Position numbers and translations under genes: made by a program. 64,000 bases of DNA from Planctomycetota bacterium (GTDB lineage: Bacteria; Planctomycetota; B15-G4). This document shows positions 7,614-20,344 of the stretch, piece by piece. The notes under the pieces are model-generated. The model ran no database searches. It saw only the letters and a list, made by a program, of their open reading frames with translations, and had not been told where the DNA came from. The stretch's first letter is position 1; each line of letters starts with the position of its first letter. The stretch is taken from positions 140,846 to 204,845 of the forward strand of contig JAQWOM010000043.1 of NCBI GenBank assembly GCA_029245865.1, in the 5' to 3' direction.

Positions 7614-8962
7614 GTCACCATCTTCTCTCCCGCAAGCGCCCGTTCCCAGAGCCCCACGAAGTCCGCTGCATTCTCTTCAAGTGTTCGGACGTTTGAAATC
7701 CCAGCGGCGAGCCTTGCAAGCAACGAGGGATCTTCCTCGAACTCCGCCAAGACGCCCGTCAATGAGCCGGGATCGCCCGCTCGGAAGGTGCGTCCATTGA
7801 CCCCATCGTTCACAATCTCTGACAATCCCCCGAGATCGCTGGCGATCACCGGTCGCCCGGCGCAAAATGCCTCGAGCACCACAAAGGGCGTGTTTTCGTA
7901 CCAGACAGACGGGACCACCAACACATCGATAGAGGACAAGGCCTCGGCCAGTTCGCCGTGACCATAGGGTCCTCGAAAGTTGATCCGTGGATCGACATCG
8001 GCGAATGCGCGCACGCGTTTTGCGTACTTCGGGAAGTGAGTCATATTCCCGCGAACGACCAGGCGGAGTCGACTGCCCCGGCACTCTCGAAAAGCCGAAA
8101 CGAGAATCTCCAGACCTTTCTTCGGGTTCACGCTCCCGAAGAACCCGAATGTCACGGTCCCCTCCCCCGCCACGGGGATCTTGCTGATCTCGCCTTGGAG
8201 CGGATCTACGCCATAAGGGCAATGCAGCATGTGCTCATCGGCATAACCATTAGAAAGAAACATGCTCTTGATGAACTTACTCGGAGCGATGAGCGCAGTT
8301 GCCTTGTCGAGAAGACCGCGGATGAACTTTTTACGCCCATGGAGCGCGGCACGCCGAGGGCCAGCTCCCTCGTGATTGAGGTCAACGAACGATGGGTTCG
8401 GCAGAGCCGATTCAACAAACCCAAAGCGTTTGCTGAACATGCGCATGCCCTGGTAACCGTAGTTGTCCGGCGCCAAACACTCCACACATGCAGAGGTCTC
8501 CGGCCCCTCACACAAGGCCCCGTCATTCCGAAGCAACTGAACTGTCGGACACAAGAACCAGTAGTCCATGAGTTGCACGTAGACGGGGATGCCGCGCATC
8601 CGACATTCCTCGATCAGCGACAAGCCGAGACCCATCAAGTGGAAAACATGCACAACATCAGGTTTGTACTCGTCTAACCAACTGCCGAAGACCTTGCCGA
8701 GAAAGACACTGTAATAGTCATTCAGTACGTGATTGGGAGCGAGGGCGTCAAAGAAGGTCAAGCGCGTCACAGGAACATCGTCGACGGTGTCTTCAAGCAA
8801 TCGATACGTCGTCTGGCGATGTGGATCTGGCTCATGAGTAAAAACGCGCAGGTCAAATCCCTGAGCTCGCAAAATCGTGGCAAGCCGGTGGGCATAGATT
8901 TCAGTGCCGGTGCTGTAGCGAGGTGGGTACTGGTGCACAACGAATGCGATCTTCACGGGCAA
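7610..8962 (-). CDS. Family 4 glycosyltransferase
   Basis: A retaining GT-B enzyme of 450 aa. The N-domain begins AFVVHQYPPRYSTGTEIY (glycine-rich acceptor loop) and contains VVHVFHLMGLG and the DYWFLCP...C...CVEC cysteine motif shared by all GT4s in this window. The C-domain has GFFGSVNPKKGLE and the E-x7-E signature in PSVWYENTPFVVLEAF. It starts with an ATG ten bases inside the preceding GT4 gene and overlaps the coiled-coil gene by ATGA. It probably acts on a lipid-linked glycan at the inner face of the cytoplasmic membrane. Specific sugar unknown. Confidence 0.87.
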   Translation of the reverse strand: MPVKIAFVVHQYPPRYSTGTEIYAHRLATILRAQGFDLRVFTHEPDPHRQTTYRLLEDTVDDVPVTRLTFFDALAPNHVLNDYYSVFLGKVFGSWLDEYKPDVVHVFHLMGLGLSLIEECRMRGIPVYVQLMDYWFLCPTVQLLRNDGALCEGPETSACVECLAPDNYGYQGMRMFSKRFGFVESALPNPSFVDLNHEGAGPRRAALHGRKKFIRGLLDKATALIAPSKFIKSMFLSNGYADEHMLHCPYGVDPLQGEISKIPVAGEGTVTFGFFGSVNPKKGLEILVSAFRECRGSRLRLVVRGNMTHFPKYAKRVRAFADVDPRINFRGPYGHGELAEALSSIDVLVVPSVWYENTPFVVLEAFCAGRPVIASDLGGLSEIVNDGVNGRTFRAGDPGSLTGVLAEFEEDPSLLARLAAGISNVRTLEENAADFVGLWERALAGEKMVT

Positions 8963-10260
8963 GACCTCCCCGACAGCGCTTGCTCGTAGAGACCCAGAAG
9001 TTCCGCGGCAGCATCTGCCTCGTCCCTTACGCGATGAGCAGAGCTCGCCAAGCGCTCCAGAAGCTGACGGTCATCTACAAGTCGCCGCAAGGCGCGAGCT
9101 AAGGAAGCTTCGTCACCCGCCTCGAACAACAGTCCGTTCACACCGTCCTCCACTGCCTCGGCCATGGCTCCATGATTTGCAGTGACCACGGGCACGCCTC
9201 TCAGGAAGGCCTCCCGAAGAGTCAGTGCATAGGCTTCGTACCAGATAGAGGGCACCACCACGACATCGAAGCTGGCCAGGATTTCAGGCACATCCTCGTT
9301 GTCATATCGCCCGTGGAGCTCGATCACCGATTCGAATCCACTGCGTAGTGCCTCAAGACGTTGCCCATAGGCCCGATCGTGGTGAAAGGGCAGTACTTCG
9401 CCCCACACATCCAAACGCATGACGGAGGGATCGCCAATCTGCCGGATTGCCTCGAGAAGCAGGTGCACACCCTTGCTCGGAAGCACCGAACCTATGAAGC
9501 CGACACGCAACGGCCCCGCGCTCCTCGGAGCGCTCGGAACCCTCTTAAAGCGGCTCACAGGGAGCCCATTCTCCACCACTTGGATTCGACCAGCAGGCAC
9601 GCCATAGGCTTCGTACATTCTCCGCATGAACGCAGAGGGAGTCACGAGAACATCCACGCCATTGAGGACACGACGCATGACTGCGTGGTAATCCTCCAGC
9701 AACGCAAGATCACCGGAATCCTGCTCATCTGCACTCGCACCGGGTGCACGACCTTGCCCCAACAAATGCGGCCACAATTCACGGAGGCAAGGCACGCATT
9801 TTCCCAGACGAATCTCCGGACAGAGTTCTAGCTCTGCCGTGATGCGCTGGCCGCGGGGACAGCCCATCCAGAAGTCGTGCAAGGTCATCACCGTGGGAAT
9901 GTCCCGCGCGCGCAGACGCTCAAGAATCGACACGGAGAGGCACGTGAGGTGATGCACATGCACGACATCAGGCTTCACTTCATCAAGGACCTCTACAAAT
10001 CGATCCCCAATGTCGGCATCTGCGTACATCTTCTCAAACGTCGTCGCCTGTTCGAAGGTATTCGACAAGCGCAGCACCGGGACGCCCTCGACTTCGTCAC
10101 GAACAAGCGAGAGGTGTGGAGCCCCTTGGCGCCCCGTTCGCGCGAACACCACGGCATCATGTCCTGCGGCCCGTGCAGACCGGGCAAGCCCTTCGACATG
10201 GAGTTCGACTCCGCCGATGGATTCGGGCAAGTAAGAGGCGGTGACAAAAAGGACGCGCAC
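8953..10260 (-). CDS. Family 4 glycosyltransferase
   Basis: A GT-B enzyme of 435 aa. Visible are LFVTASYLPESIGGVELHVEG, VVHVHHLTCLS, the DFWMGCP...C...CVPC cysteine motif, GFIGSVLPSKGVH, and the E-x7-E region PSIWYEAYALTLREAF. It is followed by NHGAMAEAVEDGVNG, which lines the donor pocket in GT4 enzymes. The ATG lies two bases after the stop of the M3 peptidase gene, and the 3' end overlaps the next GT4 by ten bases. It belongs to the same surface-polysaccharide operon. Sugar specificity cannot be read from sequence. Confidence 0.87.
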   Translation of the reverse strand: MRVLFVTASYLPESIGGVELHVEGLARSARAAGHDAVVFARTGRQGAPHLSLVRDEVEGVPVLRLSNTFEQATTFEKMYADADIGDRFVEVLDEVKPDVVHVHHLTCLSVSILERLRARDIPTVMTLHDFWMGCPRGQRITAELELCPEIRLGKCVPCLRELWPHLLGQGRAPGASADEQDSGDLALLEDYHAVMRRVLNGVDVLVTPSAFMRRMYEAYGVPAGRIQVVENGLPVSRFKRVPSAPRSAGPLRVGFIGSVLPSKGVHLLLEAIRQIGDPSVMRLDVWGEVLPFHHDRAYGQRLEALRSGFESVIELHGRYDNEDVPEILASFDVVVVPSIWYEAYALTLREAFLRGVPVVTANHGAMAEAVEDGVNGLLFEAGDEASLARALRRLVDDRQLLERLASSAHRVRDEADAAAELLGLYEQALSGRSCP

Positions 10261-10262
10261 CC

Positions 10263-12212
10263 CTAGCTGGCCAACCAGGCTTCAAAAGCGTCGAAGGCGT
10301 AGGGTCGCCCGAGAAAATCTTGCATGAGGTCCTCCGCATCACGGCTGCCACCGGGCTCCAGAACCGCTTCTCTGTAGCGGCGAGCCGCTTCGGCATTCAT
10401 CAGATCGTCACCGAATACGGACAAGCAGTCTTTCGCCAGAACCAGTGACCACATGTAGGTGTAGTAGAGCGCCGTGTATCCGTCGAGATGCCCAAAAGCT
10501 GTCTGCATGCTCGTCCCCTCTTCAAAGGGGGTCGAAATGTAGCGATCACGCGTTTCGCGCAGGACCGCAGTGGTGTCTCTCCCTTCGGGGTCCTGGCTGT
10601 AGTACTCCAGCGACAGAGCCGCATAGAACACCTGATTGCGTGTCAGGACGCCCTTCCCATATTCAGAGGCTTGGTTCATCCGCTCCACCAGTTCCACGGG
10701 GATCGGCTCGCCTGTCTCATGATGAAGAGCAAAGCTCTGCAGCACCTTTGCATCCTGCGACCACTCTTCAAACAACTGGCTGGGCACTTCGACAAAGTCC
10801 CACTCAGTCGCGATTCCCGAAGTCGCCAACCAAGCATGTCGACCTGCAAGAAGGTGGTGCAGCAAGTGTCCAAATTCATGAAAAGCAGTTCGAACATCAG
10901 AGGGATCTAGCAGCGCAGGGTTCTCAGCACCCGGGCGAGGGAAATTGCAAACGAGACAAGCACTTGGAATGACTCGGTCGCAATCCGAGCCGGCTGCATC
11001 ACCAAGCAATCCTCTCTGCAGATCGAACATGGCCGCATGCTTAAACTTGTCTTCGCGCGGATGCATGTCTAAGTAGAAACGGGCAAGGACCTCTCCCTCC
11101 TCCACGATCTCCCAGGCCTCGACATCGTCGTGCCAGAGCGCGGCACCTTCAATCCGCCGGATATGCAACCCATACAAACGTCCAATGACATCAACAATGC
11201 CGTCACGGACAGCCTCATATCGAAAGTATGGCCGAGCCTCTCTCGAATCGAATGCATAGCGTTCGCGACGCACGCCTTCGATGGCGTAAGCCCTGTCGTA
11301 GTCGTGCAGAACGCTACCGGGATGCTCAATCTGGATCGCAGCCGTAAGGTCTTCCATCTCCTGACTTGCTCGATCCACCGTGAGGTCAGCCACACGCTGA
11401 ATGAAATCACCCGCACGCTCAGCGGTCTTGATCATCTTGTCTTCAGTGGCGTAGGCCGCCCAGCTTGGATAGCCCAGCAACGTTGCCAGTTCGTGACGCT
11501 TGGCCAGCAAGTCGTCCAGAACGGAAAAATTTGCGGGGGCCCCCCGACGACTGAATTCCATGAACAACGCACGCCGCGATTCTCGATCCCGACAGAACTT
11601 CATCATTGGCATCAAGTCAGGAGGATTGGTGGTGATGTGAATCAATCCATCCTCTCCAGGCGGATGGTTGCCTATGAAGTCAGCTGGTAATCCGTCCAGA
11701 TTCGCAGCTGAATCCAGTGTGATCTCTCGTACATCACCGGCAATGTTCCGCGAGAATGACTGCCCCACCTCCACGAGTTCTTCCTGCAAGGTGCGAACTC
11801 GGTCACGAACGGCTTCATCGCGATCGACCCCCGAGCGACGAAAATCGCGCAAGGCATGCTTGATCATGCGACGCGTCACAGCGTCAGGCGCACGCTCTGC
11901 ATCGAGCCCTGCGAGTCGGTCATACACCTCACGGTCAAGCGACAGCTCGGTGCCGAAGCGACTCACATCTTGTTCAATCTCAGCTGCAGCCTCTCGCATG
12001 CTGGCGTCTGGGTGCACCTGAAAGAACAGATGAGTCAACCCTGCACTGCGGTTGAGTGGGTGCCCGATGGCATCGTGCCCCTTCAACACGTCAAGAAGAG
12101 AAGAGTCCTCTGGCAAGGCCTTGAAGGAGGCCAAAGCCTCCCTGGCGGCGGCCAGATCGGCCACGCAAGCAGCCTTGAAAGTATCGACGTCTGCTGAAAG
12201 TAGGGATTCCAT
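10263..12212 (-). CDS. M3 family oligopeptidase (thimet/OpdA-like)
   Basis: A cytoplasmic zinc metallopeptidase of 649 aa. The zinc motif HEFGH is at residues 445-449 in AFHEFGHLLHH. It is followed by the conserved block WDFVEVPSQLFEEW, which supplies the third ligand region. The N-terminal half is the helical cap typical of thimet oligopeptidase and oligopeptidase A. Length fits family M3. The family degrades short peptides, including cleaved signal peptides, so its place inside a GT operon (75 bp after the upstream GT4, 2 bp before the next) has no obvious logic. It may be a housekeeping gene caught in the operon. Confidence 0.9.
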   Translation of the reverse strand: MESLLSADVDTFKAACVADLAAAREALASFKALPEDSSLLDVLKGHDAIGHPLNRSAGLTHLFFQVHPDASMREAAAEIEQDVSRFGTELSLDREVYDRLAGLDAERAPDAVTRRMIKHALRDFRRSGVDRDEAVRDRVRTLQEELVEVGQSFSRNIAGDVREITLDSAANLDGLPADFIGNHPPGEDGLIHITTNPPDLMPMMKFCRDRESRRALFMEFSRRGAPANFSVLDDLLAKRHELATLLGYPSWAAYATEDKMIKTAERAGDFIQRVADLTVDRASQEMEDLTAAIQIEHPGSVLHDYDRAYAIEGVRRERYAFDSREARPYFRYEAVRDGIVDVIGRLYGLHIRRIEGAALWHDDVEAWEIVEEGEVLARFYLDMHPREDKFKHAAMFDLQRGLLGDAAGSDCDRVIPSACLVCNFPRPGAENPALLDPSDVRTAFHEFGHLLHHLLAGRHAWLATSGIATEWDFVEVPSQLFEEWSQDAKVLQSFALHHETGEPIPVELVERMNQASEYGKGVLTRNQVFYAALSLEYYSQDPEGRDTTAVLRETRDRYISTPFEEGTSMQTAFGHLDGYTALYYTYMWSLVLAKDCLSVFGDDLMNAEAARRYREAVLEPGGSRDAEDLMQDFLGRPYAFDAFEAWLAS

Positions 12213-12287: not shown

Positions 12288-13586
12288 TCAGCGATGCGGC
12301 TGGTGGCCGGCCTCGCTTGTGAGCCGCTCGACCAAGGCCACATCCTCTGACAACCCTCGCACGGCAGGGATACCCGCAGCGAGGTCATCGACCTTGGACG
12401 GCTGCGCACACAGTTTCTTCAGCAGCCCTGCCAGCGCCTCGGCATCGCCGGGGGGGAAGGTCAGCCCTCCTCCCTGGGCAACCAATTCGGCCATGCCACC
12501 ACGATCCGACGTGAGCACTGGCATCCCCCTCTGGAAAGCCTCATGGATCGTGAGCGGGCTGTTCTCCCACCACAAACTGGGGACCACCAGCACGTCGAGA
12601 GCGGCAAAGACCTCCTCCCGGTCTTCCTGCGAAAAGGGGCCTTTGAGCAGCAACGGCGGCGTGCGCTCGGCAATCTCTTCGAGGCGCGCCGCCACATCAG
12701 GGAACCAATCGAGGTGCCCATAAATACGCGCCTGAAGCTGTTCACCGGAGAGGCCGCTGAGTTCGACGGCTCGAGCAAATGTCTCCACACCCTTGTAGTC
12801 ACTCAGTGTGCCAACGTAGCCAAAGTGCAGCGGGACAGACGCAGGTGCACGCGCCGAACGCGCAGCCGGATCCGGGAAGCCGTAATCCGCGACGACCAGT
12901 TTCTCGGGAGGCATCCCAGCATTTTCAAAGCGGCGGGCAAGAAACTTCGAAGGCGCGATGAACTTATCTACATGTGCGTAGGCGGCATCCATATCTTTCT
13001 TACGGCCCTCCAACGCCCGTGCAAACCAGCGTCGGTCTCCTAGCTCAGCGTAGCTATTGCCATGGGAGTCGTCGCTCCAACGCTCGCGATCGATGGGGTA
13101 GATATCGACGCAATCTGCGCAGACGCTGGGCACGGCCTCCTCGCAAGCATTGCCTTTCAGATCGAACATCAAGCCGGATCGCGAACAAAGCCACCAATAC
13201 TCATGAAGAGTCATGAGCACGACAGACGTACGAGCTGCCGCGGCCTCAAGACTTGAGACACCTCCGACAAACTGCAGCCCTTGCACATGAATCACATCCG
13301 GATTGAATCGATCGAGGACGCTCTCAAAGACACGCGCCATTTGCGGGTCATCCCACTGCTCTGACAGGTCATGGTAGATACGGTTGTAAATAGCTTCGTA
13401 GACCGGGATTCCCTCGTACTCCCGCTCCAGGAGTTCGTACTGCGGAAGGTCGCGCCGCTCTTCGCATGTAAAAACAGCGACTTCATGCCCGGCATTCACC
13501 AAGGCGCGGCAGAGGTTAGCCGTGTAAATCTCAGAGCCTGCGGAGTGCAAGGGCAGGTAGTCGTGGATGACCTGGAGAATGCGCAA
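12288..13586 (-). CDS. Family 4 glycosyltransferase
   Basis: A GT-B enzyme with RILQVIHDYLPLHSAGSEIY, VIHVQGLQFVG, the EYWWLCS...C...CADC cysteine motif, GYVGTLSDYKGVE, and the E-x7-E region PSLWWENSPLTIHEAF. The track ORF starts at an ATG (13640) inside the upstream gene. I prefer the TTG at 13586: it has a strong GGGAGG Shine-Dalgarno seven bases upstream, follows the upstream stop by 16 bp, and puts the first beta strand at the N-terminus (432 aa). It is the second gene of the leftward operon. Substrate unknown. Confidence 0.82.
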   Translation of the reverse strand: MRILQVIHDYLPLHSAGSEIYTANLCRALVNAGHEVAVFTCEERRDLPQYELLEREYEGIPVYEAIYNRIYHDLSEQWDDPQMARVFESVLDRFNPDVIHVQGLQFVGGVSSLEAAAARTSVVLMTLHEYWWLCSRSGLMFDLKGNACEEAVPSVCADCVDIYPIDRERWSDDSHGNSYAELGDRRWFARALEGRKKDMDAAYAHVDKFIAPSKFLARRFENAGMPPEKLVVADYGFPDPAARSARAPASVPLHFGYVGTLSDYKGVETFARAVELSGLSGEQLQARIYGHLDWFPDVAARLEEIAERTPPLLLKGPFSQEDREEVFAALDVLVVPSLWWENSPLTIHEAFQRGMPVLTSDRGGMAELVAQGGGLTFPPGDAEALAGLLKKLCAQPSKVDDLAAGIPAVRGLSEDVALVERLTSEAGHQPHR

Positions 13587-13602
13587 CTCTCTGCCTCCCG
13601 AT

Positions 13603-14664
13603 TCAGTAGAGCGCGCGCAATCGACGAGTACGTCCAGCATCTCGTCGAAGAGGCGTGCGAGATGACAACGGGTACTCAGAATGGCGTTCCAGCCACTCCA
13701 TCAGCTCTGCAACGGGCACACGCTCTGGCACCGCACCTCCGCGGCGCACTTCCACCACAACAACACCCTGCGCACACATCGGACCGCAGAGCACGCGGAT
13801 CGGAATCCCCAGGCGTTCTGCTGCCTGCCGCTGCGCCCCAGCAGGCTCGCCAGTGTCGTCACGCAAGACCGCAAACCCCGCTGTCTCCAACTCGGCTTCA
13901 AGCTTCCGTGAAGTTTGTCGAGCCGCGACATCTTCACCAGCAGCCTCCACAAGCGCCACGTCATAGGGGGCACAAGCAGGCGGCCAGCACACACCTCGAT
14001 CATCACGGTGGTGCTCGGCAAGAACCCCCACGACTGCATAGAGATCGAGATCGAGAAGCAGGAGGTTGTCGGGCACGTGCGGGGCCGCACCCGATTGCAC
14101 TTCATTCGACTCATCTGGATCTTGCTGCAGAGACCGTCGAACCGCATGCCCAACAACCGCGCCCCCTGCTCGAATCACACCCGACTCATCTCGCTCAGGG
14201 CCAGGCACACCCAACTCAGCAAGCGCACCCAGAACCGCCGTCACGACATCGCCTGCAGCCGCGCTCTCACTGGCTTCCGACGACCCACCTTCGAGTCGAA
14301 CAATGTCTAGCCGGCGGTAGAGAGAAAGACCCGACAGGTCCTCGGCTTGTGTCACAGTCTCACGAAATCCGGTACCCAGCGCAGCCAGTCCAGATTGTGC
14401 CCCTGCCCAACCCAGATGGGCCAGGAGATTGACCAGGGCCTCTCCCTCACTGGCCGGCAAGCTCGCCTGCTGCACTCCAAGCGCCCCAACACTCGACAGC
14501 AGCGTCTCCTCAACCCGCCCAAGCACCCGTTCGAGCAGCGGCGTACCAGCGACGAGCCCGGGCCCGAGGGCCACGACAAAGCCTGAATCCACGAGAAAAG
14601 AGAATGTGTTTCCGTCTGGAGTCACCTCGGAACGGAACCGATGAACGAGGGCGGAACGACGCAT
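13603..14664 (-). CDS. Degenerate prolyl-tRNA synthetase-like protein (predicted inactive)
   Basis: The 353-residue protein follows the ProRS layout but lacks its catalytic core. The N-terminus (residues 1-70) resembles ProRS motif 1: SGFVVALGPGLVAGTPLLERV, where the enzyme has the RRLAAGIY-type block. Residues ~206-345 resemble the end of the catalytic domain and the anticodon-binding domain: GVLAEHHRDDRGVCWPPACAPYDVALV, then LRDDTGEPAGAQRQAAERLGIPIRVLCG. Motif 2 with its ATP-binding Arg, motif 3 and the editing insertion are not recognisable. It is the first gene of the leftward GT operon and is divergent from the secreted protein gene. A tRNA-binding, editing-accessory or regulatory role is possible; aminoacylation is unlikely. 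Confidence 0.65.
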   Translation of the reverse strand: MRRSALVHRFRSEVTPDGNTFSFLVDSGFVVALGPGLVAGTPLLERVLGRVEETLLSSVGALGVQQASLPASEGEALVNLLAHLGWAGAQSGLAALGTGFRETVTQAEDLSGLSLYRRLDIVRLEGGSSEASESAAAGDVVTAVLGALAELGVPGPERDESGVIRAGGAVVGHAVRRSLQQDPDESNEVQSGAAPHVPDNLLLLDLDLYAVVGVLAEHHRDDRGVCWPPACAPYDVALVEAAGEDVAARQTSRKLEAELETAGFAVLRDDTGEPAGAQRQAAERLGIPIRVLCGPMCAQGVVVVEVRRGGAVPERVPVAELMEWLERHSEYPLSSRTPLRRDAGRTRRLRALY

Positions 14665-14843: not shown

Positions 14844-16361
14844 ATGAACATCATTTCAACACTCTCCGCAGCCCTCCTCTTGGCAAGCAGTGTCTTCGCC
14901 GGGGGGGCGACGATCGACAGCACGGACTACCTCCCCCTCGGTCATTTCCATGCGTGGGAGATGATTGATAGCGACAACTTCGTAACCGGGGGCACGCAGA
15001 TTGTCAGCGTAAAGAAGACAATCACAGACAACGAGCAACTCCGCTACAACGTGCGCACGAAAGTCTTCGACGAGATAGCCGATGTCGTCTTCCAACTCGG
15101 CATCGAAGGCGAGAACGCCTACCTGTACGGGGCCCGAGTGGTCGTAGGCGACGTGGACTTTGGTGACAGTGACATCAAGGTCGACACCATGCTCTTTGAG
15201 CCCAAAGTTTTCCTGGGCAGCACAACGACCACACTCGACACAGATCCGGTGGTGACAGACGTCACTTCAAGCATCAAGTTCAAGATCAAGATTGGCCCGA
15301 AGTCATTCGGCGGAAAAGTAGACGTTGCCGGAACCATTGCAACAAGCTGGCAATCGGTTGGTGATGTCGACACGCCGCTTGGATTGATTCCGGGATCGGA
15401 TCTCGCTCAACTCACGATGACTTTCGACTTCACCTACAGCTCTCAAGATGAAGACATCCATGAGGCAATCGAGGACGAGTCCACGCTCAAAACAGTTCAT
15501 GCCACCTTGGGCGCAAACCGCGGGTTCGTGCAGATTGACGGTGCAGGAAGTTCGGCCAAAGTTCTCAAACGAGCGATCCTGACCAACACGACTTTGGGTA
15601 ATTTTCCTCCCCTCACATCGGACCTCTCGCAACTGACGATCCCCACTCCTCAGTTGTTCAATCTCTTCCTGGATGATTCAGGAGAGAGTGGCCTCACGGA
15701 CGAATTCCTCTCCATGACGGACCTCGAACTCACGCAGAGGCTCGGCGGCAAAACAGAGCTAACCGCAAACATCGACGTCAACGGGGGAGTCACTGTTCCG
15801 GTGCAACTGAAGGGCAAAACCAAGTTCAAGAAAGACGGCTCCGCACTGATCAGCCTCAAAGGAAAAACACCGCACCCTGAATTGTTCGCCCCTCTCAAGA
15901 TGAAGATCAAGTCAGTGATCACTGCGGACAGCACCGAACTGCTCCTGACCTACAAGGGGGGCAAAGACCCTTTTGGCTCGCCGATTCTGGGCGAAGTCAT
16001 GATCCCCATCGCCCCCGCGCCCGTGGCCTCGGTTGAACTTGCACTGAACAAGTTGCTCGACGTGAAGTTCGACCCCAACCCGCTCAAACGCAAGTTAGGT
16101 GCCGAAGGCACGTTGACGGTGGGCACCAAGATCATTCCCGTGACCGTGTTTGAATCATTAAAAGCCAAGCCCGGCTCCCCCGCGACACGCAACTATTCAC
16201 TCATTCAGTCCGGGGGAAGCGGCAAGAAGCTCCTGAAGTTCCGTGCGAGCAACACCGATGAGTCGGACTACCTTGTCAGTAAGATGAGAGGCAGCTTGGT
16301 GGGCTTAAAAGTCCAACCCGATGTCACGACTCTCGACATCACCATGGACGCAGAAGATTAG
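14844..16361 (+). CDS. Secreted protein of unknown function
   Basis: A 505-residue protein with a clear signal peptide (MNIISTLSAALLLASSVFAGG, cleavage near residue 20). The mature part is Thr/Val/Lys/Asp-rich and looks all-beta. The C-terminal half has a loosely repeated pattern in which a strand ending VPVQLKGK is followed by a Lys-rich KFKKDGSA turn, echoed by IIPVTVFESLKAK. No enzymatic motif, lipobox, sorting domain or membrane anchor is visible. It is transcribed alone on the plus strand between divergent and convergent genes. A periplasmic or cell-surface structural protein is plausible. I do not recognise the family. Confidence 0.75.
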   Translation: MNIISTLSAALLLASSVFAGGATIDSTDYLPLGHFHAWEMIDSDNFVTGGTQIVSVKKTITDNEQLRYNVRTKVFDEIADVVFQLGIEGENAYLYGARVVVGDVDFGDSDIKVDTMLFEPKVFLGSTTTTLDTDPVVTDVTSSIKFKIKIGPKSFGGKVDVAGTIATSWQSVGDVDTPLGLIPGSDLAQLTMTFDFTYSSQDEDIHEAIEDESTLKTVHATLGANRGFVQIDGAGSSAKVLKRAILTNTTLGNFPPLTSDLSQLTIPTPQLFNLFLDDSGESGLTDEFLSMTDLELTQRLGGKTELTANIDVNGGVTVPVQLKGKTKFKKDGSALISLKGKTPHPELFAPLKMKIKSVITADSTELLLTYKGGKDPFGSPILGEVMIPIAPAPVASVELALNKLLDVKFDPNPLKRKLGAEGTLTVGTKIIPVTVFESLKAKPGSPATRNYSLIQSGGSGKKLLKFRASNTDESDYLVSKMRGSLVGLKVQPDVTTLDITMDAED

Positions 16362-18227: not shown

Positions 18228-19064
18228 CTAGAGGGCGAAGCGAACCCACACCGGCGCATGATCCGACAGGCCGGCTTTCTTTTCGATCCACGCTTCGCGT
18301 GCGCAAGGCGCCAGATCAGGAGAGGCCAGCACATAGTCCAGTCGCCACCCCAAGTCATTCTCTCGCGCACGGCCTCGATTAGACCACCAGGAGTAGAGCC
18401 CCGGCTCATCCGGATGCAAGTCGCGAAGAACGTCGGCCCAGCCCTGATTGAGCAACCGGCTAAACCAGGCTCTTTCCTCCGGTAAAAATCCGGAGTTCTT
18501 TTCGTTTCGCTTGGGCGCGTGAATGTCGATTTCCGTATGGGCGATATTGAAGTCACCACAAATGACCGTCGGCCGTCCCTGTGAAAGCAGGTCTGCAGTC
18601 ATGGCCAGGAAATGATCGAGCCACAAGTATTTCCGGCCCTGCCGCTCCTCTGACGAAGAACCGCTAGGAACATAGACGTTGAGAATCGTCATTTCGGGAA
18701 GGTCTGTTCGCAGCACGCGGCCCTCAGCATCACTCCAATCGAGACCTGAGCCTTCGACGTACCGATCCGCTGCAGGGCGCGAGTAAGTGGCCACTCCGGA
18801 GTACCCCTTCTTCTCTGCATTGAGCCAGCGTGAGTTGTAGCCTTCGGGGCAGCGCAAAGAGGCGTCGACTTGCTCTGGCCAGGCGCGCACTTCCTGGAGA
18901 CACAGCACATCCGGCCGGCCTTTGGCCAGCCATTGAGCCCAGCCCTTGGAGGCTGCAGAGCGAATCCCATTGCAGTTGAGTGAGCACAAGGTGAAGGCTC
19001 GCTCATCAGTTCCAAACAGCGAACGTGTTTTGGACGCATCTTGACGACGCCGAGCAGCACTCAT
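18228..19064 (-). CDS. xthA: Exodeoxyribonuclease III
   Basis: This AP endonuclease/3'-exonuclease of base-excision repair has the full catalytic set: CSLNCNGIRSA, LCLQEVRA (metal Glu), ILNVYVPSG, CGDFNIAHTEIDI (Asp/Asn pair) and LSDHAPVWV (catalytic His). At 278 aa it has a ~25-residue basic N-terminal extension before the fold starts. The ATG overlaps the hisS stop by four bases (ATGA), so it is translationally coupled to hisS. The pairing has no obvious functional meaning. Confidence 0.92.
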   Translation of the reverse strand: MSAARRRQDASKTRSLFGTDERAFTLCSLNCNGIRSAASKGWAQWLAKGRPDVLCLQEVRAWPEQVDASLRCPEGYNSRWLNAEKKGYSGVATYSRPAADRYVEGSGLDWSDAEGRVLRTDLPEMTILNVYVPSGSSSEERQGRKYLWLDHFLAMTADLLSQGRPTVICGDFNIAHTEIDIHAPKRNEKNSGFLPEERAWFSRLLNQGWADVLRDLHPDEPGLYSWWSNRGRARENDLGWRLDYVLASPDLAPCAREAWIEKKAGLSDHAPVWVRFAL

Positions 19065-20344
19065 TCGTCCGAAAAGCTCCGCACATTGACAGGAGTCTCA
19101 GAATCCAACACTCCAAAGCCATCAAAGCCCTGAGCCTGAAGTTCGTCGAGTTGCTTGCCCATCTTTTTCCGCCGAAGCACTGTCGTCACAGAACAACCCT
19201 GCGAACGCAGTGCGGAGGCTTCTTCCATCAGGCTTCCTAACTCCGCATCCGTCCCGTAGAGAAGAGCGATGTGCCGTCGCTCTCGAGTCGGAACAATCCC
19301 TTGCTCTTCCAAGACCATGACGACGCGCTCGAAGCCTATCGAGAAACCACAGGCGGGAACCTCACGACCTGAAATGCGTCCGATCATCTTGTCGTAGCGG
19401 CCACCACCCGCCATGGCAAACGGATAGCCCTTCATCACGACCTCGAAGATGGCTCCCGTGTAGTAGCCCATGCCTCGCACAAGCGTGGGATCGATCTCAA
19501 GCGCAGAGCCTTCCGGGAGTGAACGTCCGGCAATGTCTGCAATCTGAAAGAGCCCACGCTCAACTTCCTCACCCTCGGCGTCCAGATCCATGCGTGACCG
19601 CCAACACCGAAGGGCATCGTCTCTTCGGCCCTCTGCCATGCAAGTCAACACTTCCATGGCCGCCTCAACAGCCTCGCCCGGGTGTTGTTTGGACAACAAT
19701 TCCTCGGCAACTCCATCCAAACCGATCTTGTCTAACTTGTCGATCGTGATGAACACTTCGCCGATTCGTTCGTCTGAGAAACCACAGCCCGCAATGAAGG
19801 CATTGAGCAGTCGGCGGTCATTGAGACGCACGACGAAACCCTTTAGACCCAATTCTGTGAGAGCTGACACCGTCGCCCGAATCAACTCGATTTCCGCCAG
19901 AATCGAAGCTTCACCAAGTACGTCAATATCGCACTGGGTGAACTGTCGAAAACGGCCTCTCTGCGGGCGCTCAGCCCGCCACACCGAACCGATTTGAATG
20001 GAACGAAATGGGCTTGGCAATTCACCGGCGTGTTCGGCGTAAAAGCGGGCGAGCGGCACCGTCAAATCGTAGCGCAAGCCAAAATCGACAAGATCGTCAG
20101 CGCGCGTAGCACTGGCGAGATCCAATTTGTCGCCCCGCTTCAAAACCTTGTAGATCAGCTTCTCGTTGTCCCCACCCTCTCCACTGCACAACAGGTCGAT
20201 ATGCTCCAGAGCTGGCGTCTCAACTCGTCGGTAGCCGAAGCAGTCATATGCCTTCAGAATGACACTCTGTGCATGATCGCGCCGCTCCACCTGCCCAGGG
20301 AGCAGATCGCGCATGCCGCGTGCAGGGGCGGTGTTGTTCTTCAC
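19061..20344 (-). CDS. hisS: Histidyl-tRNA synthetase
   Basis: A class II synthetase of 427 aa that charges tRNA-His. Motif 1 follows RGMRDLLPG. Motif 2 is seen as FRSIQIGSVWRAERPQRGR...FTQCDID, and the His-specific motifs are present (LVRGMGYYTGAIFEV; GGGRYDKMIG; GFSIGFERV). A C-terminal anticodon-binding domain starts near IALLYGTDAE. Length is normal for the bacterial enzyme. It is the first gene of a two-gene unit with xthA, with 68 bp between its start and the flavoprotein gene upstream. A clear housekeeping anchor. Confidence 0.96.
   Translation of the reverse strand: MKNNTAPARGMRDLLPGQVERRDHAQSVILKAYDCFGYRRVETPALEHIDLLCSGEGGDNEKLIYKVLKRGDKLDLASATRADDLVDFGLRYDLTVPLARFYAEHAGELPSPFRSIQIGSVWRAERPQRGRFRQFTQCDIDVLGEASILAEIELIRATVSALTELGLKGFVVRLNDRRLLNAFIAGCGFSDERIGEVFITIDKLDKIGLDGVAEELLSKQHPGEAVEAAMEVLTCMAEGRRDDALRCWRSRMDLDAEGEEVERGLFQIADIAGRSLPEGSALEIDPTLVRGMGYYTGAIFEVVMKGYPFAMAGGGRYDKMIGRISGREVPACGFSIGFERVVMVLEEQGIVPTRERRHIALLYGTDAELGSLMEEASALRSQGCSVTTVLRRKKMGKQLDELQAQGFDGFGVLDSETPVNVRSFSDE

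Follow-up and report, generated by a model that had tools for sequence, protein, structure and literature searches.

We analysed a window of 64,000 nucleotides from a planctomycete genome (G000), in which a shortened gene for a bacterial-type (P-type) proline–tRNA ligase (ProRS), hereafter the relic, lies directly upstream of a glycosyltransferase gene. An orthologue is found in a sister genus (G002). The genes that define the locus, all on the minus strand, are:

13603–14664 (−): remodelled P-type ProRS relic of 353 aa, assigned from the open reading frame, the G002 orthologue, ProRS homology and a predicted class II fold
12288–13586 (−): GT4-family glycosyltransferase, with probable start TTG 13586 rather than ATG 13640 and GGGAGG at 13594–13599
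10263–12212 (−): M3-family peptidase, following in the conserved cluster
8953–10260 (−): second GT4-family glycosyltransferase of the conserved cluster
19061–20344 (−): full-length HisRS, a conserved landmark upstream of the cluster, present likewise at the loci of G002 and G003-C13

The coordinates, strand and 353-residue length of the relic agree with the original prediction. Orthologues of the adjacent glycosyltransferase begin at the residue matching the TTG start, which lies 16 bases past the relic stop in G000 (a few bases in G002); the mechanically called ATG start at 13640 makes this gene overlap the relic (13584–13640, −). Overall, the cluster of glycosyltransferase, M3 peptidase and glycosyltransferase, together with proS or the relic, was conserved in G000–G004, with exonuclease, HisRS, LPD and DedA genes upstream where the fetched loci extended that far. 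The gap upstream of the relic contained no promoter or terminator consensus. A divergent, secreted-looking 505-aa protein without a Pfam match (14844–16361, +) adjoins the relic, and a counterpart with 32% identity lies beside the relic in G002. An antisense open reading frame (13371–14432, +) overlaps the relic and the glycosyltransferase start; it is also 353 aa long by chance and is of a kind that is ordinary in high-GC DNA.

Within the relic, the following parts were delimited:

14449–14664 (−): motif-1 region, residues 1–72, with a ProRS core HMM match at 1.4e-7 and a predicted helix (42–60) and strand (65–68)
14290–14388 (−): vestigial motif-2 hairpin, residues 93–125 (ALGTGFRE...GLSLYRRLDIVRL), from the alignment, core HMM and predicted structure; the preceding TXE segment is deleted
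14155–14172 (−): point of the missing INS editing domain of ~180 residues, at about residues 165–170 (approximate, from the alignment)
14011–14067 (−): motif-3 strand and helix, residues 200–218, GIGVSR changed to DLDLYA with the Arg lost, from predicted structure and alignment
13681–14010 (−): anticodon-binding domain, residues 219–328, from Pfam and NCBIfam matches and the ProRS alignment
13606–13668 (−): basic C-terminal tail, residues 333–353, ending RALY; common to G002 (TRANY) and absent from full-length P-type ProRS

The C-terminal half matched the ProRS anticodon-binding domain (Pfam PF03129, E = 8.8e-11), NCBIfam ProRS models over residues 211–325 (E = 7e-22) and a ProRS in the PDB (E = 2e-17), which bears out the anticodon-binding C terminus that had been proposed from the letters alone. 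The proposed motif-1-like N terminus was likewise recovered: a profile of the two relic N termini retrieved genuine ProRS N termini from other planctomycetes (E down to 1e-8), and a ProRS core HMM, from which the editing insert had been cut out, matched the N terminus of both relics (1e-7 to 5e-8). A global profile alignment against full-length enzymes misplaced the relic N terminus into the editing domain. In class II synthetases, the motif-1 region is the dimer-forming helix and strand. The relic picks up the ProRS core again with the VGH motif at about residues 165–170, an approximate alignment placement, and between motif 3 and the C terminus 17 of 26 near-invariant ProRS positions are kept in the G000 relic and 16 of 26 in that of G002. 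The relic scored below the curated cut-offs for P-type ProRS (63.7 versus 306.7 bits for TIGR00409; 78 versus 558 bits for NF006625). It therefore resembles this enzyme in its orthologous locus, motif-1 region, anticodon-binding domain and predicted class II fold, but is 353 rather than about 590 aa long and is without the TXE segment, the INS editing domain and the motif 3 Arg.

Compared with 24 P-type ProRS of this phylum, neither relic has a TXE segment (PTHEE) or any part of the INS domain. Motif 3, GIGVSR in ProRS, reads DLDLYA in the G000 relic and GLDLHA in the G002 relic, so that an Arg conserved in 100% of the 24 enzymes is Ala in both. The expectation that motif 3 would be missing is thus correct for the Arg and the GIGVSR signature, while the corresponding strand and helix are still predicted. 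Motif 2 had been described as unrecognisable, which was overstated: the G002 relic reads FREESRSEAGL where ProRS has FRDEFRPRFGL, a vestige that beats all 279 shuffles scored, and a hairpin is predicted in G000, although in a shuffle comparison the G000 region is not significant by sequence alone. The G000 relic keeps FRE, and the flanking ALGTGFRE...GLxLYRRLDxVRL is common to the G002 relic. The RPR of motif 2 has become RSE in the G002 relic and is gone from that of G000; its first Arg is required by P-type enzymes for acceptor-stem recognition (PMC12152171). By alignment, the relic no longer has the residues for adenylation and for handling the tRNA acceptor (TXE, the motif 3 Arg and, in G000, the motif 2 RPR), which agrees with its original description as a catalytically stripped ProRS.

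The predicted lack of an editing insertion also held, with no PF04073 domain in the relic itself or elsewhere in the G000 and G002 genomes; the domain was found in G001, G003 and G004. A trans-editing factor of the YbaK/ProXp-ala type was ruled out because the relic is without this tRNA_edit domain. The relic is almost certainly not a minimal ProRS that is still active: its predicted class II fold and anticodon-binding domain are retained, but the motif 3 Arg has become Ala in both relics, TXE is deleted and a complete ProRS of another type is present in the genome (see below).

Structure prediction agreed with a class II synthetase relation, and the relic is predicted to keep a class II ProRS-like fold. 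An AlphaFold2 model of the G000 relic (pLDDT 78.8, pTM 0.79; input, the two relics and ProRS fragments) placed the motif-1 helix at residues 42–60, hairpin strands at 93–104 and 111–125 where motif 2 belongs, and a strand (200–207) and helix (208–218) where motif 3 belongs, with the middle of the alignment covered by essentially the two relics only. Foldseek returned a bacterial ProRS as the top PDB match for this model (probability 1.00). Because some ProRS N-terminal fragments were badly split or misplaced in the input alignment, we made a second, alignment-poor model from the two relics alone as a check; this low-confidence model again ranked ProRS first. Among the best structural matches was also the mitochondrial DNA polymerase gamma accessory subunit (TM 0.63 both ways), which is related to class II synthetases but not catalytic. 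This protein has a class IIa synthetase-like fold and about the relic's size, but it is a eukaryotic polymerase processivity factor with no sequence or genomic link to the relic.

The slot occupied by the relic in G000 and G002 holds full-length, editing-domain ProRS in G001 and in both G003 copies of the cluster, directly upstream of the glycosyltransferase. In G004, the cluster contains a full-length P-type ProRS with a phosphatase-like open reading frame between it and the glycosyltransferase. Because the same syntenic slot holds full-length ProRS in sister genera, the relic is the in-place orthologue of the family's P-type proS and not a paralogue in the strict sense, as the original prediction had called it. 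Gene position is indeed conserved across G000–G004, but it is held by the full-length enzyme in G001, G003 and G004; the neighbourhood is therefore older than the loss of catalysis and uninformative on any new function. This bears directly on the suggestion that the relic serves envelope glycan synthesis as a tRNA-sensing or amino-acid-transfer enzyme. The relic does lie close to and directly upstream of a glycosyltransferase gene, but an ordinary ProRS holds the same place in sister genera, so this proximity is inherited; the ATP- and acceptor-handling residues are missing; and the operon partners are not all glycan builders, since an M3 peptidase sits between the two downstream glycosyltransferases. 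The suggested envelope role is thus unsupported, and we consider it highly improbable.

The two cluster copies in G003 (G003:C13 and G003:C9), each with a full-length P-type ProRS, are 68% identical over three cluster proteins and represent either a segmental duplication or a mixed assembly. A search of the genome contigs with the glycosyltransferase returned only G003 and G004 records and two distant glycosyltransferases.

A second proS, as the original prediction required, was found in G000: one complete E-type (archaeal/eukaryote-type) ProRS (TIGR00408, 514 bits; PF00587, PF03129 and PF09180), at L004 832–2370 (G000:C42). G002 likewise carries one intact E-type ProRS (TIGR00408, 518.7 bits). 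No full-length P-type proS was detected in G000 (90.7% complete) or G002 (89% complete), which makes it unlikely that the relic is a duplicate of a surviving P-type gene, though at this completeness an unassembled copy could have escaped detection. The reverse pattern was found in G001, G003 and G004, with full-length P-type and no E-type ProRS; neither type was seen in the 87% complete assembly of G005. In the E-type tree, the G000 and G002 enzymes were sisters (94/88) within a 100/99 clade that also contains G034, G020 and G050, from three other families, and apart from the f2 and f3 enzymes of the same order. The simplest reading of sisters nested among the enzymes of other families is that the E-type ProRS was probably acquired laterally, once, before the G000/G002 split; the tree is unrooted and does not fix the direction of transfer. 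An amidohydrolase-like gene neighbours the E-type proS in both genomes.

A switch of tRNA-Pro to E-type identity was ruled out, as the tRNA-Pro genes of all six genomes still have C1-G72 and A73, the P-type state. Charging of P-type tRNA-Pro by bacterial E-type ProRSs has been reported (PMC12152171). With no PF04073 in G000 or G002, PF04073-family proofreading of Ala-tRNA-Pro may be missing from both.

Three cluster proteins grouped G000 with G002 against the rest with 100% support, and in the relic tree the pair branched beside the P-type ProRS of f1 on a common stem of 1.38, followed by branches of 0.71 and 0.97. This long shared stem and the identical deletions point to a loss of catalysis before the two genera split. 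Since that split, the relics have retained 44% protein identity (composition alone predicts 0.09), with codon-position identities of 0.58/0.60/0.32, whereas their four-fold sites are near saturation (35 of 102 identical, or 0.34, versus 0.29 at saturation). Because protein identity has persisted despite such sites, the relic is not simply decaying but is held by protein-level purifying selection, as judged from two sequences at high divergence. A displaced proS eroding as a pseudogene, its open frame a mere leftover, is accordingly improbable. Such decay would suit a gene made redundant by the E-type ProRS, found in two genera only and evolving faster than its parent (C-terminal block identity of 38% for the relic pair versus 67–82% for f1 ProRS pairs), but the frames are intact in both genera, which also have relic-only residues and the C-terminal tail in common.

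Constraint was not evenly distributed: the middle of the relic, a catalytic-core remnant at residues 71–205, is best kept (0.47), compared with 0.38 for the anticodon-binding block, which suggests that function lies in the remodelled core and not in tRNA binding alone. It is very unlikely that the frame is kept mainly for translation feeding the downstream glycosyltransferase, as a coupling or leader sequence with an incidental protein. The short distance from relic stop to glycosyltransferase start in both genomes is what such coupling would lead one to expect, but it would give no reason for amino acids to be conserved from end to end, as they are here, with the constraint running through the core remnant.

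The relic is known from the G000 and G002 sequences only. No further relics were found in 14 genomes of the class or 392 of the phylum, where weak matches were mostly ordinary ProRS N termini, and none were found in viral contigs. One short frame (310 aa, G089) was rejected as the cut-off N terminus of an ordinary ProRS.

We favor the reading, with a probability of about 0.78, that a displaced P-type proS in its ancestral place lost catalysis yet was retained under selection as a non-catalytic binding protein. The locus is that of the family's original bacterial-type proline–tRNA ligase, never moved from its ancestral place. Judging from the tree, aminoacylation of tRNA-Pro most likely passed to an E-type ProRS that the shared ancestor of G000 and G002 had gained by lateral transfer. 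The displaced enzyme then lost the TXE loop, the editing domain and the motif-3 Arg in a burst of change common to both genera, and the shortened protein has been kept since by purifying selection at the protein level. With a motif-1 core, an anticodon-binding fold and a conserved, remodelled catalytic-core floor in its predicted structure, the protein would most likely act by binding only. The likeliest binding targets would be either a translation-related partner, for which the E-type ProRS and tRNA-Pro are candidates, or, by analogy with HisZ, a small ligand occupying the former pocket.

Retained as a binding protein, the relic could, more specifically, regulate or stabilise the E-type ProRS through its core and an E-type-like C-terminal tail, a possibility we hold only tentatively. 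Within the family, the relic occurs only alongside an E-type ProRS; the relics end R-A-x-Y, and all 31 E-type sequences listed end A-Y, S-Y or N-Y (mostly R/K-A-Y), while Tyr ends none of the P-type enzymes listed; and the tail is conserved between the two relics. However, a four-residue likeness seen in two sequences only may be chance, and across the phylum the genomes that carry an E-type ProRS mostly lack a relic. It is doubtful, though conceivable, that the displaced ProRS became a regulator of its own replacement, binding the E-type ProRS or tRNA-Pro and tuning proline charging in cells without a recognisable PF04073 domain.

The relic resembles the non-catalytic synthetase-like proteins, of which HisZ and the polymerase gamma accessory subunit are examples, in that its predicted fold is kept, its catalytic residues have gone although the gene stays under selection and an intact synthetase is encoded elsewhere. 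Its nearest working model is HisZ, the regulatory subunit of ATP phosphoribosyltransferase, a paralogue of HisRS that has no adenylation activity and regulates HisG (PMC9437257). HisZ is a class II synthetase-like, non-adenylating protein retained for a non-aminoacylating role, as the relic would be, but HisZ derives from HisRS and has HisG as its partner, whereas the relic derives from ProRS by displacement rather than duplication and its partner is conjectural. Known derivatives of ProRS or its editing domain include ProRSx of Streptomyces and YbaK/ProXp-ala (PMC9437257, PMC3973320); ProRSx is catalytically active, unlike the predicted non-catalytic relic, and YbaK/ProXp-ala consists of the editing domain alone, the part missing from the relic. 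A review names ProRSx as the paralogue of ProRS and attributes synthetase-like proteins in general to gene duplication (PMC9437257), and in a partial literature search no account of a non-catalytic P-type ProRS retained after displacement came up. Here, by contrast, the original gene seems to have been set free when a foreign enzyme took over. Both the state before (sister genera whose proS is intact in this position) and the state after can be read, providing a clean case for studying what stays useful in a synthetase once catalysis is lost, and a warning that a gene neighbourhood may be inherited from a former function.

Some tRNA-Pro genes had partial copies. On G002:C1, an intact tRNA-Pro(TGG) at about 468.4 kb (L133) is followed 15 kb on, at about 483.6 kb (L139), by a 3' fragment that includes CCA, a pair that looks like the att repeats of an element integrated in tRNA-Pro. 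In G005, tRNA-Pro(GGG) has a similar 3' fragment (L132), and another matching copy lies at G005:C210 (L147).
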